In this document: piece after piece, positions 62 through 5,818 of the stretch
How positions within the stretch are numbered: the first letter of the stretch is position 1
Layout: each line of letters begins with the position of its first letter
DNA from: Armatimonadota bacterium
GTDB taxonomy: Bacteria > Sysuimicrobiota > Sysuimicrobiia > Sysuimicrobiales > Sysuimicrobiaceae
Reading direction: 5' to 3'
Assembly (NCBI GenBank): GCA_025059775.1
Contig: JANXCW010000002.1
Location: forward strand, 1-64,000
DNA length: 64,000 nucleotides
The notes under the pieces: generated by a model
What the model saw: only the letters and a program-made list of their open reading frames with translations
Database searches by the model: none
Told to the model about the DNA's origin: nothing
Program-made: the position numbers and the translations under genes

Positions 62-862
62 CTATCCCTCCCGCCTGTACCTCCGCAGGGCCTCGATGAG
101 CCGCCCCATCTTGGGATGTTCCGGCTCCACGCCCACCCGCACCCCCCGCGCCACCAGGGCTTGGCGCGACACCGGCCCTACCGCAGCCACGGTCACGCGG
201 CCCTGGAGAGCTTCCCGCAAGGCCTCCGCCCATCCCATCTCCTCCGCCACCCGGAAGAGGTGGATCACCTGCGGCCGGCTCGTCACCACCGCCGCCCAAA
301 ATGCACCTTCCACAAGGCCCCGCACGGCCTCCTGGAGCGGGCGGAGATCCGCGGGAAGCACCCAACGATAGGGTTGGACATCCACCACCTCGGTGCCGCG
401 CCCTGTCAGGTGGTTCCGGAGGGCCTCGTTGACTTCCCCGTAGTGCTGGACGAAGACCACGCGGTTCTGAAGCTCTACGGTGTCCAAGGTCGCACACAGC
501 TCCGCGGTGGTGTACGGACTGGGGGCAGAAAGCGATGGATGGATTCCCCACCGTCGGAGCACCGCGGTGGGCTTGGGCCCTCGAACCGCGATGGGCACGG
601 CCCGCAGAGCCTCCAGGTACGCCTGCCCGAGTCCGAGGCGGTCCGCAAGCCGGTGCAGCCGCTCCGCTCCGGTACCGGTCTGCAGCACCACCCAGTCCAC
701 GCCTCGAACGCACAGCCGCTCCAGCGGCTTCCGAACTTCTTCCGGATCCGCGTCCGCCTCCACCACCGCGGGAACGCACACGGGCTCCCACCCTTCCCGC
801 CGTATGAGGTGGACGAGGACTTCCGGCATCCGCGACTCAAGCACGAGCACCCGCCTGTCCAC
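62..862 (-). CDS. hemD: Uroporphyrinogen-III synthase
   Basis: A 266-residue protein predicted to cyclise hydroxymethylbilane to uroporphyrinogen III, the branch point for heme, siroheme and cobalamin. HemD sequences diverge strongly, so the call rests on overall length, alternating Rossmann-like segments and the C-terminal signature around VAAVGPVSRQALVARG followed by a short HPKMGRLIEAL segment, as is usual in this family. The GTG at 862 is chosen because it follows a GGGAGG ribosome site and matches the usual N-terminus; longer in-frame readings run into cysC. It overlaps the 3' end of cysC by 26 bp and precedes a siroheme synthase, so in this operon its product is probably channelled to siroheme for sulfite reductase. 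Confidence 0.8.
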   Translation of the reverse strand: MDRRVLVLESRMPEVLVHLIRREGWEPVCVPAVVEADADPEEVRKPLERLCVRGVDWVVLQTGTGAERLHRLADRLGLGQAYLEALRAVPIAVRGPKPTAVLRRWGIHPSLSAPSPYTTAELCATLDTVELQNRVVFVQHYGEVNEALRNHLTGRGTEVVDVQPYRWVLPADLRPLQEAVRGLVEGAFWAAVVTSRPQVIHLFRVAEEMGWAEALREALQGRVTVAAVGPVSRQALVARGVRVGVEPEHPKMGRLIEALRRYRREG

Positions 863-1871
863 TGGGCATCCTCCCGTAGCCTCGCTCCGCCAGCAGCGCC
901 AGCACCCTCTGGGCGCTCGCCTCAGGCGGCTCACGGTCCGTATCCAGCACCAGATCCGGAGCCTCCGGAGGTTCGTAGGGGTCGCTCACACCGGTGAAGT
1001 TCTGGACCTCGCCCCGCAGGGCCTGGGCGTACAGGCCCTTGGGATCCCGCTCGACGAGCACCTCCAACGGGCAGCGCACGTACACCTCGAGGAAGTCGCC
1101 GATGCGCTCCCGGGCCTCCCTCCGGCCCTCCCGGTACGGGGAGACCAGGGCCACCAGCACCACCACCCCGTGGCGGACCAGCAGCTCCGCCACGTAGGCC
1201 ACGCGGCGGATGTTCTCGAGGCGGTCCTCCCGGGAGAACCCGAGGTCGCGGGAGAAGTGCTGGCGCACTACGTCTCCATCTAGGATCTCCACTGGGTGTC
1301 CTTGGGCGCGCAGGCACTCGGCCACGCGGTACGCGATAGTAGTCTTTCCGGAACCCGGAAGCCCAGTGAGCCACACGCAGATGCCCCGAGGTGAAGGGGT
1401 GCTCCTCCCTTCCCCCACGGTAAGGCTTTCCACCTGCACGCCGTCCGCCCGTACGGCCAGGGTCAATCCGAGGCCGTCGGCCTGCAGGGTCACGGTGAAG
1501 TGACCCAGAGTCCGCATCGCTACCCGGACGGCGTCCAGCCGCAGGCCCCGCAGGGCCTGAAGGACCTGGTTCACTCCCTCCAGCTGGGCCTGCAGCGCTT
1601 GCCCCCGAGGCGTACGCAGCAGGAGATCGGTCCAGAGGCGCTCGCCCTCTGCGCGGCCGAGAGTCCGGGCCCGTCCCGTTTGCAGCACCATGACCGCAAG
1701 CCCTTCCAGCAGCTCCACGAGTTCGCCCGGAACCGTTCCTGCCCGGACGTGTTCCACCAGCTCCAGCAGCCGGGAGCGCTGGGGCTCCCGCGCGGCCCGG
1801 CTCAGGGCTAGCGCCTCCTCGGCGACCAGCCGGGTCTCCTCCTCCGTCAGGGGGATGCCTGCCTTGGTCAT
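837..1871 (-). CDS. cysC: Adenylylsulfate (APS) kinase with an extra N-terminal domain
   Basis: Residues about 163-344 form a standard APS kinase, which phosphorylates APS to PAPS with ATP. Visible are the Walker A motif GLPGSGKTT at 170-178, the DGDVVR segment, the ENIRRV segment and a family-typical C-terminus. The first ~160 residues are not part of the known kinase fold. They contain helical Leu/Ala/Glu/Arg-rich stretches and a short beta-rich patch before residue 160; I do not recognise the domain. APS kinases are usually about 200 residues, so this is a fusion. The ATG at 1871 overlaps the cysH stop (ATGA). Coexistence with an iron-sulfur APS reductase makes PAPS non-essential for reduction, so the kinase may serve sulfation or APS homeostasis (inference). 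Confidence 0.88.
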   Translation of the reverse strand: MTKAGIPLTEEETRLVAEEALALSRAAREPQRSRLLELVEHVRAGTVPGELVELLEGLAVMVLQTGRARTLGRAEGERLWTDLLLRTPRGQALQAQLEGVNQVLQALRGLRLDAVRVAMRTLGHFTVTLQADGLGLTLAVRADGVQVESLTVGEGRSTPSPRGICVWLTGLPGSGKTTIAYRVAECLRAQGHPVEILDGDVVRQHFSRDLGFSREDRLENIRRVAYVAELLVRHGVVVLVALVSPYREGRREARERIGDFLEVYVRCPLEVLVERDPKGLYAQALRGEVQNFTGVSDPYEPPEAPDLVLDTDREPPEASAQRVLALLAERGYGRMPSGQAGARA

Positions 1872-2686
1872 TCCGCCCGCCCTCCCACGGGCTCGGACGC
1901 CACACCGTGGGCTTCCTTTAGGATGGCGTGGGCCTCGTGTTCGAACCCACCGGTCTCGATGGGGCAATGGATGCCGCACTCCTTGGGTGCTCCCACCTCC
2001 CACCACCACCGGCCCGCTCGGTCGTCCTCGCCCCGCTGGATCGGCCGGGTGCAGGGGTCGCAGCCGATGCTGGTGTAGCCTTGCTCGTATAGGGGATGGA
2101 TGGGAACGCCGTAGCTCGTGAGGTACTCCCACACCTCCTCCTTGGTCCAGTCCGCGAGCGGATTCACCTTCACGATGCCGTCGTGGTCGTGGTCCAGCTC
2201 CACCTTGCGGATATTGGCCCGGGAGGCCCACTGCTCCCGGCGCAGGCCCGTGATCCACGCATCGAGCCCCTCCAGGGCCCGCACGAGAGGCCGCACCTTC
2301 CGGATCTGACAGCACAGCAGCCGCAGGGGTACGGACCGGTAGAAGAGATTTACGCCGTGCCGCCGCACCATGGTCTCCACCTCCCGGTAATCTGGGAAGA
2401 GCACCTCGAACCGGGCCTGCGGGTAGTGCTCCCGCACCCGGTCCATGAAGGCGTAGGTGGCTTGCGGCAGCCGTCCTGTGTCCACAGTGATCACCCGGAC
2501 ATCCGGCCGGATGCGGGAAGCCATGTCCAGGATGGCCATCCCCTCCGCCTGGAAGGCGGTGACCACCGCCACCCCATCTTCGAAGGTATCTAAGGCCCAG
2601 GCGATCACCTCTTGCGGCTCCCGGTCGTCCAGCTCGATGGCGATCTCTCCGATCTCCAGGTCGTCGAAGGTCACCCGCCGCGACAT
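1868..2686 (-). CDS. cysH: Adenylylsulfate (APS) reductase, [4Fe-4S] type
   Basis: A 272-residue thioredoxin-dependent reductase of the CysH family that converts APS (or PAPS) to sulfite and AMP. Cys125-Cys126 together with Cys209-x2-Cys212 form the four-cysteine set that binds the [4Fe-4S] cluster in assimilatory APS reductases and is absent from enteric PAPS reductases. The catalytic ECGIHC motif is at 236-241. The PP-loop-like N-terminal half contains the VDTGRLP segment. It sits between the sulfite reductase fusion (18 nt gap, GGAGGTGG ribosome site) and cysC (4 bp overlap). The cysteine pattern predicts APS as substrate; the neighbouring kinase means PAPS cannot be excluded. Confidence 0.93.
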   Translation of the reverse strand: MSRRVTFDDLEIGEIAIELDDREPQEVIAWALDTFEDGVAVVTAFQAEGMAILDMASRIRPDVRVITVDTGRLPQATYAFMDRVREHYPQARFEVLFPDYREVETMVRRHGVNLFYRSVPLRLLCCQIRKVRPLVRALEGLDAWITGLRREQWASRANIRKVELDHDHDGIVKVNPLADWTKEEVWEYLTSYGVPIHPLYEQGYTSIGCDPCTRPIQRGEDDRAGRWWWEVGAPKECGIHCPIETGGFEHEAHAILKEAHGVASEPVGGRAE

Positions 2687-2704: not shown

Positions 2705-4636
2705 CTAGCCGCCCGAAAGGGCAGGCAGAATGGTGAGCTCCTGTCCCGCGCACAGGGGGGTATCGAGCCCCGCGAGCCCTCGGATGTCCTCCTCGTCCAC
2801 GAAGAGGTTGATACCCGGATGCACCTGGCCGTCCGGGGCGAGGAGATGGGGGGCGAGCTGTGGGTACTGTGTCCTCAGGACCTGGAGGGCTTCCCGCACC
2901 GTCCTGGCCTCCACCTCCACCCGGTCCGCACCGCCCGTGAAGGGGAGGAACATGCCCGGAATGCGCACCACAGGCCGCCGCGGAGCCTCTTCCTCCCCGA
3001 CCAACCGGCCCAGGGCAAGGGCCTGCAGGGCGTCATCGGTGTGCGCGTCCACGAAGTCCCGGAAGGTGTACCCGTCGCCATGTCTGGCCCGCTCCCGCAG
3101 CCACGCCTCCACCAGGCGTCCCACCACCTCCGTGATCTGATCTTCGGGGATGCGGCGCAGGATCGGCTTGCCGATGGCGGCCCGGCTTCCCAGTCCCCCG
3201 CGCAGGCACACATCGTATGCCTCCACCCGCACGCCCTTGGTGGGGTGCTGCGTGGTGGTTCCCTGCAGTCCGATGTCTCCCACCCAGTGGTGGGCGCAGG
3301 CGTGTGGGCAGCCGTCCATGTAGATCCGCAGTTCCTCCACGGCCTTCCCGAACCGCTGCTCTAAGGTCTCCAGGATCTGCTGGAGCTTCCCCTTGGTCTC
3401 CGCCACCGAGTAGTTGCAGAACTGGTGATCCGTGCAGGCGGTGGACCGACCGTAGAGTTTGTTGCGGTGCGGATCCAGATGAAACCGCCGCAGCCGATCC
3501 ACAAGCCATCCCAGGCGCTCTTCGGAGACACCGGTCACGAGGATGTTCTGCATGCGGGTAAAGCGTGCATCTCCGCCGAACTCCCCCACGAGCTCACCCA
3601 AGGCCACCAGTTGATCTCCCCGTACCCACCCCATGGGCACCGGAATCCCCACGTAGACCAGCCCCTCCTGCTTCTGCGGGTGGATGCCAAGGTGGTCCGT
3701 GTCCTGCAGGGGTGGAGGAGCCGAACCGTCCTCCAGCCTGTGGCCCAGGCGTTCCTCCACCATGGCCCGCACCTTCTCCGGGCCGTAGTCATCCACCAGG
3801 AACTTGATGCGAGCCTTGGCGCGGCTCAGGCGGTAGCGCAGGTTGTATTGCCAGGTGTCCGTGATGGCCCGCAGGACCTCTACGACCCCCTCGACGGGCT
3901 CCGCAGGTACGAACACACCGAGATCCCGTGAGAGGCGGGGGGTGGCGGAGAGTCCTCCGCCCACCCGCACGGCGAAGCCCCTCCGTCCGCCCTTGAGCAC
4001 GCCTACCAGGGCCACGTCGTGGATCTCGGGGGCGTTGCACTGGGCGGGGCAGGCGCTGATGGTGTACTTGTGCTTGCGAGGGAGGTTGCTGTATTCGCGG
4101 TTTCCGTAGAAGAAGCGGGCCACCGCTTCCACTACAGGCCGTACGTCGAACAGCTCCTCCCGATCCACACCCGCCACGGGGCAGCTGGTGATGTTGCGTA
4201 CCGTATCCCCCTCTCCGCCCACGGTGGTAAGGCCACACGCCTGGATCTCCGCGAGCACCTCTGGAAGTTGCTCTAGCCGCACCCAGTGCAGCTGGATCCC
4301 CTGCCGTGTGGTCAGTTCCCCGTAGTTGCGGCCGTACTTCTGGGAGATCCGGCCTACGGCGATTAACTGGTCCGGCGTGATGCGGCCGCCCGGAACCTTG
4401 ATGCGGACCATGAAGGTGCCGACCTTGGGCTTGTCGTGGGTAAGGCCCCACCAGTTGAGCCGCACGATGTCCTCTTCGGGGATGGCCTCATAGCCCCGCG
4501 CGATGAGTTCCGGCAGCTCGTGGAGGATGTCGAGGGGGAACTTCTCCTGCTTGAGCCGCTCGATGGAGTTCCGTTTGAGCACAAGATCCCAACCCACTTC
4601 CGTCGCCTGTCCAATCCCTGGAATCTGGGCCACCAT
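2705..4636 (-). CDS. Siroheme sulfite reductase fused to a C-terminal MoaD/ThiS-like sulfur carrier
   Basis: Residues 1 to about 545 are a ferredoxin-type nitrite/sulfite reductase: two half-repeats and the siroheme/[4Fe-4S] ligands Cys401-x5-Cys407 and Cys443-x3-Cys447. It should reduce sulfite to sulfide with six electrons. After a short linker, residues ~555-643 form a beta-grasp domain resembling the MoaD/ThiS sulfur carriers: a PFTGGADRVEVEA start, a TVREALQVL helix, a GINLFVDEEDI strand, and a last LTILPALSGG ending exactly on Gly-Gly before TAG. A terminal Gly-Gly is what E1-like enzymes adenylate and convert to a thiocarboxylate. Operon position makes sulfite the substrate rather than nitrite. 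The E1-like partner and any protease are not in the window. Start ATG at 4636 follows GGGGGAGATCC. Confidence 0.9.
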   Translation of the reverse strand: MVAQIPGIGQATEVGWDLVLKRNSIERLKQEKFPLDILHELPELIARGYEAIPEEDIVRLNWWGLTHDKPKVGTFMVRIKVPGGRITPDQLIAVGRISQKYGRNYGELTTRQGIQLHWVRLEQLPEVLAEIQACGLTTVGGEGDTVRNITSCPVAGVDREELFDVRPVVEAVARFFYGNREYSNLPRKHKYTISACPAQCNAPEIHDVALVGVLKGGRRGFAVRVGGGLSATPRLSRDLGVFVPAEPVEGVVEVLRAITDTWQYNLRYRLSRAKARIKFLVDDYGPEKVRAMVEERLGHRLEDGSAPPPLQDTDHLGIHPQKQEGLVYVGIPVPMGWVRGDQLVALGELVGEFGGDARFTRMQNILVTGVSEERLGWLVDRLRRFHLDPHRNKLYGRSTACTDHQFCNYSVAETKGKLQQILETLEQRFGKAVEELRIYMDGCPHACAHHWVGDIGLQGTTTQHPTKGVRVEAYDVCLRGGLGSRAAIGKPILRRIPEDQITEVVGRLVEAWLRERARHGDGYTFRDFVDAHTDDALQALALGRLVGEEEAPRRPVVRIPGMFLPFTGGADRVEVEARTVREALQVLRTQYPQLAPHLLAPDGQVHPGINLFVDEEDIRGLAGLDTPLCAGQELTILPALSGG

Positions 4637-4648
4637 TGGATCTCCCCC

Positions 4649-5818
4649 CTAGCGCACGCGCTCCACGGATCGCCTTTGGATCTGGACGAAATGCTCCAAT
4701 AGGATGCGGGCCACCTCCGGCCGCATCACCTGCGGCGGCGGGAACTGTCCCGCGCGCAGAAGCTCCCGTACCCAGGTGCCGCTGGGGTTCACCCGAGCCT
4801 CCGGCGGGTGCGGGCAGCTGCGCTCCGTGGCCATAGCGTCGCACCGCCGGCAGTAGAAGGCCTCCCCGAAAAAGAGAGGCGTAATCCCGATGGCCTGCGG
4901 ATCGAACCGATCAAAGATGCGGTGAGCTGCATACGGCTCATAGAACCCACCCACACCCGCGTGATCCCGGCCGATGAGGATGTGGGTGCACCCGTAGTTC
5001 TTGCGCACGAGCGCGTGGAACACCGCCTCCCGCGGCCCCGCATACCGCATGGCCGCGGGGAACGCCGCCAGAAGCACCCGGTCTCGGGGATAGTACTCCT
5101 CTAGCAACGCTTCGTAGGTGCGCAGACGCACCAGGGGTGGGAGGTCGTCCTCCTTCGTCTCCCCCACGAGCGGGTGCAAAAAAAGCCCATCCGTCACCTC
5201 CAGGGCGCACTTCTGCAGGTACTCGTGGGCCCGGTGAATGGGATTGCGGGTCTGGAAGGCGGTCACCGTACGCCACCCCACCTGTGTGAAATACGCCCGG
5301 GTCTCCGCGGGATCCCGCTCGAGCCCAGGAAAAGCACGGGGCGGTCGGTCCAGGAGCCAGATCTCCCCGCCCGCCACCCATGGAGACTCCCGCAGCAGCC
5401 GGGCCACGCCTGGATGCCTCCGGTCCGTGGTGCCGAAGACCCACCGAGCTTCCTCCTCCAGGTCCCGTCGGTAGATCTCCTCCACCTCCATCACCGCCAA
5501 GATCCCTCCAGCTCGCAGTGTGAGCCGATCGCCCCGGCCCGCGCGGCGGGCCAGCTCCTCCGGGATCGGCAGGGTGATGGGCAGAGTCCAGGGGAGACCG
5601 CAGGGTAGGTGCATCTCGCGCACCACGGACCGATACTCCTCCTGCGGCATGAACCCTCGCAGGGGGCTGTAGGCCCCCGTGGCGATGAGCACCGCGTCCG
5701 CGGCCTCCTTGGGTGCAAGAGCCACTGCGGGAAGGCGGCGGATCTCCTCGCGCAGGATCTGCGCGCGTTCTCCCTGCACCGTGCGTTGGACCAGCTCTCC
5801 ACCGTGCGGCGCGATCAC
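4649..5818 (-). CDS. sat: Sulfate adenylyltransferase (ATP sulfurylase)
   Basis: A 389-residue monofunctional Sat that makes APS and pyrophosphate from sulfate and ATP, the first step of the pathway. Diagnostic motifs are QTRNPIHRAHEYLQ, the HPLVGETKEDD segment and GRDHAGVGGFYEPYAAH. Length fits the bacterial/archaeal Sat family rather than the CysD-CysN heterodimer. The start is a GTG at 5818 behind a strong CCGGAGGTGG site. It is the first gene of the operon, 12 nt before the sulfite reductase fusion, and is preceded by a sigma70-like promoter and a roughly 217-nt leader, so expression is probably controlled at this point. Confidence 0.96.
   Translation of the reverse strand: MIAPHGGELVQRTVQGERAQILREEIRRLPAVALAPKEAADAVLIATGAYSPLRGFMPQEEYRSVVREMHLPCGLPWTLPITLPIPEELARRAGRGDRLTLRAGGILAVMEVEEIYRRDLEEEARWVFGTTDRRHPGVARLLRESPWVAGGEIWLLDRPPRAFPGLERDPAETRAYFTQVGWRTVTAFQTRNPIHRAHEYLQKCALEVTDGLFLHPLVGETKEDDLPPLVRLRTYEALLEEYYPRDRVLLAAFPAAMRYAGPREAVFHALVRKNYGCTHILIGRDHAGVGGFYEPYAAHRIFDRFDPQAIGITPLFFGEAFYCRRCDAMATERSCPHPPEARVNPSGTWVRELLRAGQFPPPQVMRPEVARILLEHFVQIQRRSVERVR

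Follow-up and report, generated by a model that had tools for sequence, protein, structure and literature searches.

The window, a stretch of 64,000 nucleotides at the start of contig JANXCW010000002.1 of an Armatimonadota bacterium (assembly GCA_025059775.1), carries near its beginning a tight operon on the minus strand. The genes are, in order, sat, a gene fusing a sulfite reductase (SiR) to a sulfur carrier of the CysO type, a cysH-like gene, a gene for APS kinase and hemD. The following features were assigned.

62-862, minus strand: uroporphyrinogen-III synthase gene (hemD), for siroheme supply, assigned by Pfam; the contig starts here.
837-1871, minus strand: APS kinase gene; the kinase domain spans about residues 162-332 and is preceded by an unnamed domain of about 155 aa.
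1868-2686, minus strand: PAPS/APS reductase gene (cysH-like), immediately downstream of the fusion, assigned by Pfam.
2705-4636, minus strand: SiR-CysO fusion gene, 643 aa, with an ATG start and a stop codon after ...ILPALSGG.
2708-2965, minus strand: within the fusion, CysO-type beta-grasp sulfur-carrier domain (residues 558-643) with the C-terminal LSGG.
2990-4636, minus strand: within the fusion, siroheme/4Fe-4S sulfite reductase part of the NirA/SirA type (residues 1-549), assigned by Pfam, fold and invariant cysteines.
4649-5818, minus strand: ATP sulfurylase gene (sat), upstream of the fusion in the same operon with a 12-base gap, assigned by Pfam and gene prediction.

In Pfam, the fusion matched NIR_SIR twice and NIR_SIR_ferr twice; after these, residues 561-643 matched ThiS (PF02597) and scored 41.1 bits, where the cut-off is 22.5. 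These repeated reductase domains and the four siroheme/4Fe-4S cysteines (C401, C407, C443 and C447), which are invariant among 23 aligned fused homologues, are features of assimilatory siroheme sulfite reductases. By sequence, the reductase part is close to nitrite reductases and to M. tuberculosis NirA alike; by fold, M. tuberculosis NirA (1zj8) is the nearest solved reductase (E 3e-46). Sulfite is favored over nitrite as the substrate because the operon holds sat, cysH and the APS kinase gene. The enzyme is probably ferredoxin-dependent. The reductase part is complete. The initial annotation, which had described a siroheme sulfite reductase with a C-terminal carrier and a protein ending in Gly-Gly, was confirmed by Pfam, AlphaFold2 and conservation. 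Directly 3' of cysH, nearly all of these operons, with or without the fusion, encode a conserved protein of about 155 residues that has no Pfam match; it is joined to the APS kinase in the window's family (the N-terminus of 837-1871) and is a separate gene in most relatives (for example L013:10682-11146 and L012:3121-3666).

The fused carrier is a CysO, the carrier type of the M. tuberculosis cysteine pathway, according to profiles, tree, sequence and modelled fold. Group profiles made without the test sequences scored the domain of the window at 87 bits for CysO, 13 for MoaD and 3 for ThiS. A tree was built from 89 carrier domains; all 23 fused ones fell into one clade (100/98) nested in CysO, and fused domains and CysO together stood apart from ThiS and MoaD with a support of 98/95; a ThiS or MoaD identity was ruled out by these profiles and this tree. 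The nearest solved relative of the tail by sequence is CysO of M. tuberculosis (3dwg_C, E 6e-12), followed by CysO of Amycolatopsis (4n6e_B). AlphaFold2 gave a pLDDT of 86.8 for the whole protein and 90 for the tail alone, and in both models the tail is a beta-grasp. Among carriers, the CysO structures 4n6e_B, 3dwg_C and 3dwm_A ranked first in the fold comparison with these models and were the best solved matches of the tail (TM 0.83-0.90). A beta-grasp fold had been set as a test beforehand and was borne out by this match of the models to CysO crystals; the length of the carrier domain, put earlier at about 90 residues, was refined to about 86 (558-643).

G642 and G643 were invariant in the alignment of 23 homologues, where just 8 of the 94 carrier-domain positions are invariant. 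Together with five further fused proteins, which come from the same genus or from Actinomycetota and all end at Gly-Gly, the pair is kept in 28 of 28 fused proteins, as expected by the initial annotation for close homologues. A chance Gly-Gly or a mis-read tail was ruled out by conservation and fold. The statement that the protein stops exactly at Gly-Gly holds for 16 of the 23 aligned sequences; in six others, which form three sister pairs, two more residues follow, and the remaining one reads through into CysH. The last case (L014:7941-10721) is a single open frame of 926 aa encoding sulfite reductase, CysO and CysH; its Gly-Gly is internal, so that cleavage would be needed. Comparison with free CysO proteins revealed changed residues in the fused clade: F58, found in 30/30 free CysO, and R12, found in 29/30, are each present in 0/23 fused domains, and G41 (27/30) is mostly lost. 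Contacts with E1, CysM or JAMM may therefore differ, and at least one protein contact of the fused carrier has probably changed. Judged from these residues, the fused domain would be a divergent branch of the CysO family, F58, R12 and G41 not being a recognised family criterion.

Among the 51 loci that a pattern-based scan found in 84,980 species genomes, 22 carry a full-length fusion. The reductase tree gathers the fused proteins, with sequences from Chloroflexota, Rhodothermota, Acidobacteriota, Actinomycetota and others, in a single clade (99/99), and no loss of the carrier was seen within it. We infer that the CysO fusion had one origin and then spread horizontally across several phyla. 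In the phylum of the window it is confined to the window's family, and in Actinomycetota it was found in 10 of 397 genomes. At the locus of a close relative (G085, L052:6816-9576 and L209), sat is intact and the fusion gene is cut short at about residue 237, from where it continues into a rhodanese gene; neither the remainder of the reductase nor cysH was found on that stretch, which reflects either a deletion or an assembly fault.

The genome of the window (2.35 Mb, 99% complete) encodes five carriers: a ThiS-ThiG fusion (G000 C5, L075:4642-5652), a MoaD-MoaE fusion (C4, L076:5111-5782), a TtuB-like protein adjoining a TtuA-like gene, a free CysO and the CysO tethered to SiR. The carrier is N-terminal in the ThiS-ThiG and MoaD-MoaE fusions and their Gly-Gly is internal, whereas that of SiR-CysO is free. 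A single E1 scored over the cut-off; it is MoeZ-like, with a rhodanese domain, and its ATP loop, two CxxC pairs and rhodanese YCASGQR loop are present. A second operon encodes the free CysO, which ends AGGWR, a SerK/SbnI-like kinase, CysM, a JAMM peptidase with an intact HxHx7SxxD motif and a CymR-like regulator. The E1-like protein, the JAMM protease and a CysM acceptor sought on the basis of the initial annotation were thus all found, the latter two in one shared operon, and every partner gene is present in the genome. CysM is the only cysteine synthase among six PALP enzymes, the others being of the threonine synthase, dehydratase and TrpB types; comparison of CysM with the PDB did not separate O-phosphoserine from O-acetylserine enzymes. 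No serine acetyltransferase (CysE) scored over the cut-off in the genome, where partial hexapeptide matches only were seen. Either methionine or cysteine had been proposed as the product. The CysO type of the carrier indicates cysteine, and the methionine reading, with an HcyS-type carrier, was rejected because the genome has no MetY-type enzyme (no PF01053 match over the cut-off, with controls positive in 14/14).

A similar set was found in the 22 other fused genomes: E1 over the cut-off in 21/22, JAMM in 21/22, free CysO in 21/22 and a CysE-like protein in just 4/22; these are draft genomes, in which single absences are weak evidence, and the overall pattern is consistent. No E1, JAMM or CysM gene was seen near the fusion at any fused locus. 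As a control, genomes with an unfused SiR were found to carry CysO too, so co-occurrence alone is not specific and CysO is a common background of this reductase branch. Among unfused loci, L055 holds E1, CysO, CysM, SiR, CysH, CysC and Sat in one cluster, and in L227 CysO lies immediately upstream of SiR. Other arrangements of these genes were noted. CysO is fused in one frame to the N-terminus of its own E1 at L145:1402-2925 (G009), there with a rhodanese-like domain in between, at L195:1477-2940, at G004:C7 263552-264586 and at G005:C122 1985-3028. In three of the 21 genomes above, the free CysO lies within one frame with E1. A short protein between the CysM/NIL and SiR genes (L055:6502-7149 and L045:1202-1849) has an E1-like start, looks degenerate and has no Pfam match. 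G008, a Chloroflexota genome of 1.6 Mb in which the SiR-CysO fusion is present too, contains three CysO genes, an E1 and CysM genes in about 4 kb (C35 13451-16658).

A sulfite reductase with a different carrier was found in a genome of the same order and another family (G087, L208).

L208:1073-2932: sulfite reductase with a ThiS-type tail.

This sulfite reductase of 619 residues is 48% identical, and its tail is a short ThiS-type domain ending ALSGG and followed by SGGEVICREWA, i.e. 11 residues beyond Gly-Gly. The tail exceeds the Pfam cut-off for ThiS, scores 25 bits with the ThiS profile compared to 6 with that of CysO, and groups with ThiS/TtuB in the carrier tree. Upstream of it lies a rhodanese gene, and another sulfite reductase, which is partial, follows directly downstream. 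Based on these sequences, L208 is apparently an independent second fusion at the same position of SiR, seen in one genome so far and on a long reductase branch. The presence of two unrelated carriers at the same position of SiR suggests selection for coupling between the reductase and a carrier.

In M. tuberculosis, MoeZR thiocarboxylates CysO, CysM uses the product with O-phosphoserine, and Mec+ frees cysteine; the source of the CysO sulfur was stated to be unknown in that work (PMC3227635). With the M. tuberculosis CysO set in this genome, the simplest interpretation would be one in which sulfur made by the reductase charges the CysO tethered to it and is spent by CysM. We regard this proposal, a capture by the tethered CysO of sulfur from the reductase of the same polypeptide for use in cysteine synthesis, as the best explanation, and hold it with moderate confidence. 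The fusion would then carry out the final reductive step of a route from sulfate to cysteine that uses protein-bound sulfur. Sulfite would be supplied by Sat, APS kinase and CysH and reduced at the siroheme center. The single MoeZ-like E1 would adenylate the tethered CysO at its free C-terminal Gly-Gly, which would become a thiocarboxylate with sulfur made by the same polypeptide and supplied either as sulfide or as sulfane sulfur via the rhodanese domain of E1. CysM would take this sulfur and a carrier-Cys adduct would be formed, the co-substrate probably being O-phosphoserine made by the SerK/SbnI-like kinase of the CysM operon. Finally, the JAMM peptidase of the same operon would release cysteine; in variants with residues beyond Gly-Gly, it would trim those first. 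According to a 2026 report, the direct product of assimilatory sulfite reductases is zero-valent sulfur and not sulfide (PMC13188885), and such a product would suit the rhodanese domain of E1. A point against the tethered CysO as the carrier spent by CysM is that the free CysO of the CysM operon could do the job alone.

This free CysO is central to another explanation, in which the tethered CysO is a docking module that recruits E1, free CysO or CysM to the sulfite reductase, and free CysO would be charged close to where the sulfur is made. A free CysO accompanies the fusion in the genome of the window and in 21/22 others, and the fused domain differs from free CysO at several positions that are invariant in the latter; both points favor docking. 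Docking would not obviously need an invariant Gly-Gly, yet the pair is kept in 28/28 proteins while the body of the domain diverges to 40-79% identity, and we consider this explanation unlikely. The same loss of CysO-invariant residues suggests a changed partner, and one E1 must serve several carriers; the carrier might hence be thiocarboxylated and either deliver its sulfur to an acceptor other than CysM (in tRNA thiolation, a cofactor or Fe-S) or receive it from a cysteine desulfurase. Dedicated ThiS-ThiG, MoaD-MoaE and TtuB-TtuA-like pairs already cover thiamine, molybdopterin and tRNA, however, and the fusion sits in a sulfate-assimilation operon, which makes such a role quite improbable.

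Two further explanations were weighed. The fusion might be a neutral by-product of gene order, a stop codon having been lost between SiR and cysO, with a carrier that acts like free CysO. That cysO adjoins SiR in some genomes and that L014 shows a further read-through, into CysH, fit this origin; but the single origin followed by spread through several phyla with no carrier loss seen, and the second, unrelated carrier at the same place, point to selection and render a neutral fusion very unlikely. The tail might also be a regulatory tag, forming reversible protein adducts as archaeal SAMP1 does or being used by JAMM to control the reductase. The NCBIfam model SAMP1 matches the fused tail with 50 bits, under its cut-off of 60, and an enzyme of Haloferax is regulated by SAMP1 and HvJAMM1 (PMC4443979). 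CysO is closer by both sequence and fold, and the neighboring genes are metabolic, so that we give this last explanation very little credence.

The proposed charging of the tethered CysO with sulfur from its own reductase can be compared to known systems. The HcyS-HcyF-HcyD-MetY system is a methionine route of Wolinella succinogenes with a thiocarboxylate carrier, an E1 and a JAMM protein that is tied to sulfate assimilation; by contrast, the genome of the window has a CysO-type carrier and is the one described above as devoid of a MetY-type enzyme over the cut-off. DsrAB-DsrC resembles the fusion in that a sulfite reductase works with a dedicated acceptor with a reactive C-terminal tail. The analogy is functional only: DsrC uses cysteines instead of Gly-Gly, has a fold other than the beta-grasp and is not known to occur fused to its reductase. 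Homologues of all four components of the M. tuberculosis CysO-CysM-Mec+-MoeZ pathway are found in the genome of the window, with the differences that the carrier is covalently attached to SiR, E1 is encoded elsewhere, some CysO-invariant residues are changed and the CysM operon also has the SerK/SbnI-like kinase. The M. tuberculosis reductase NirA/SirA (1zj8) is without a carrier domain, unlike the fusion. Iyer et al. (2006; PMC1779556, text and Table 1 row 4e) reported that in Nocardioides and Acidothermus cellulolyticus sulfite reductase has a distinct ThiS fused to its C-terminus, placed these fusions in a cluster class with E1, JAB, SirA and sulfate genes, and suggested that sulfate/sulfite sulfur might end on a ThiS/MoaD-like protein. 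Because of this note (one sentence and a table note), the architecture was already known, and the domain order and the sulfate-assimilation neighborhood are the same as in the window. The carrier was called a distinct ThiS in two actinobacteria, whereas here it is a CysO found in several phyla, linked to a CysM/JAMM/kinase operon in another part of the genome and accompanied by a second, unrelated fusion. In the open-licence literature searched, no study of the fused protein itself was found beyond the 2006 note. To that note, this analysis adds the assignment of the carrier to CysO, the spread of the fusion and its single origin, a closed set of pathway genes within one genome, the changed residues and the second fusion.

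The natural SiR-CysO fusion, in a genome with no CysE or MetY detectable, points to the reductase as the source of sulfur. The fusion offers one purified protein in which the origin of the sulfur of the CysO thiocarboxylate can be tested, and asking whether a protein accepts the sulfur is timely given the report of zero-valent sulfur (PMC13188885). The family, its partner genes and the second case make the idea of a built-in sulfur hand-over testable. Tentatively, and with some doubt, we suggest that tethering of a carrier to SiR evolved at least twice, once with CysO and once with a ThiS-type protein, because the reductase passes sulfur directly to the C-terminus of the carrier, as an assimilatory counterpart of DsrAB-DsrC. 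If such a direct hand-over is true, cysteine would be made from sulfate without a pool of free sulfide.
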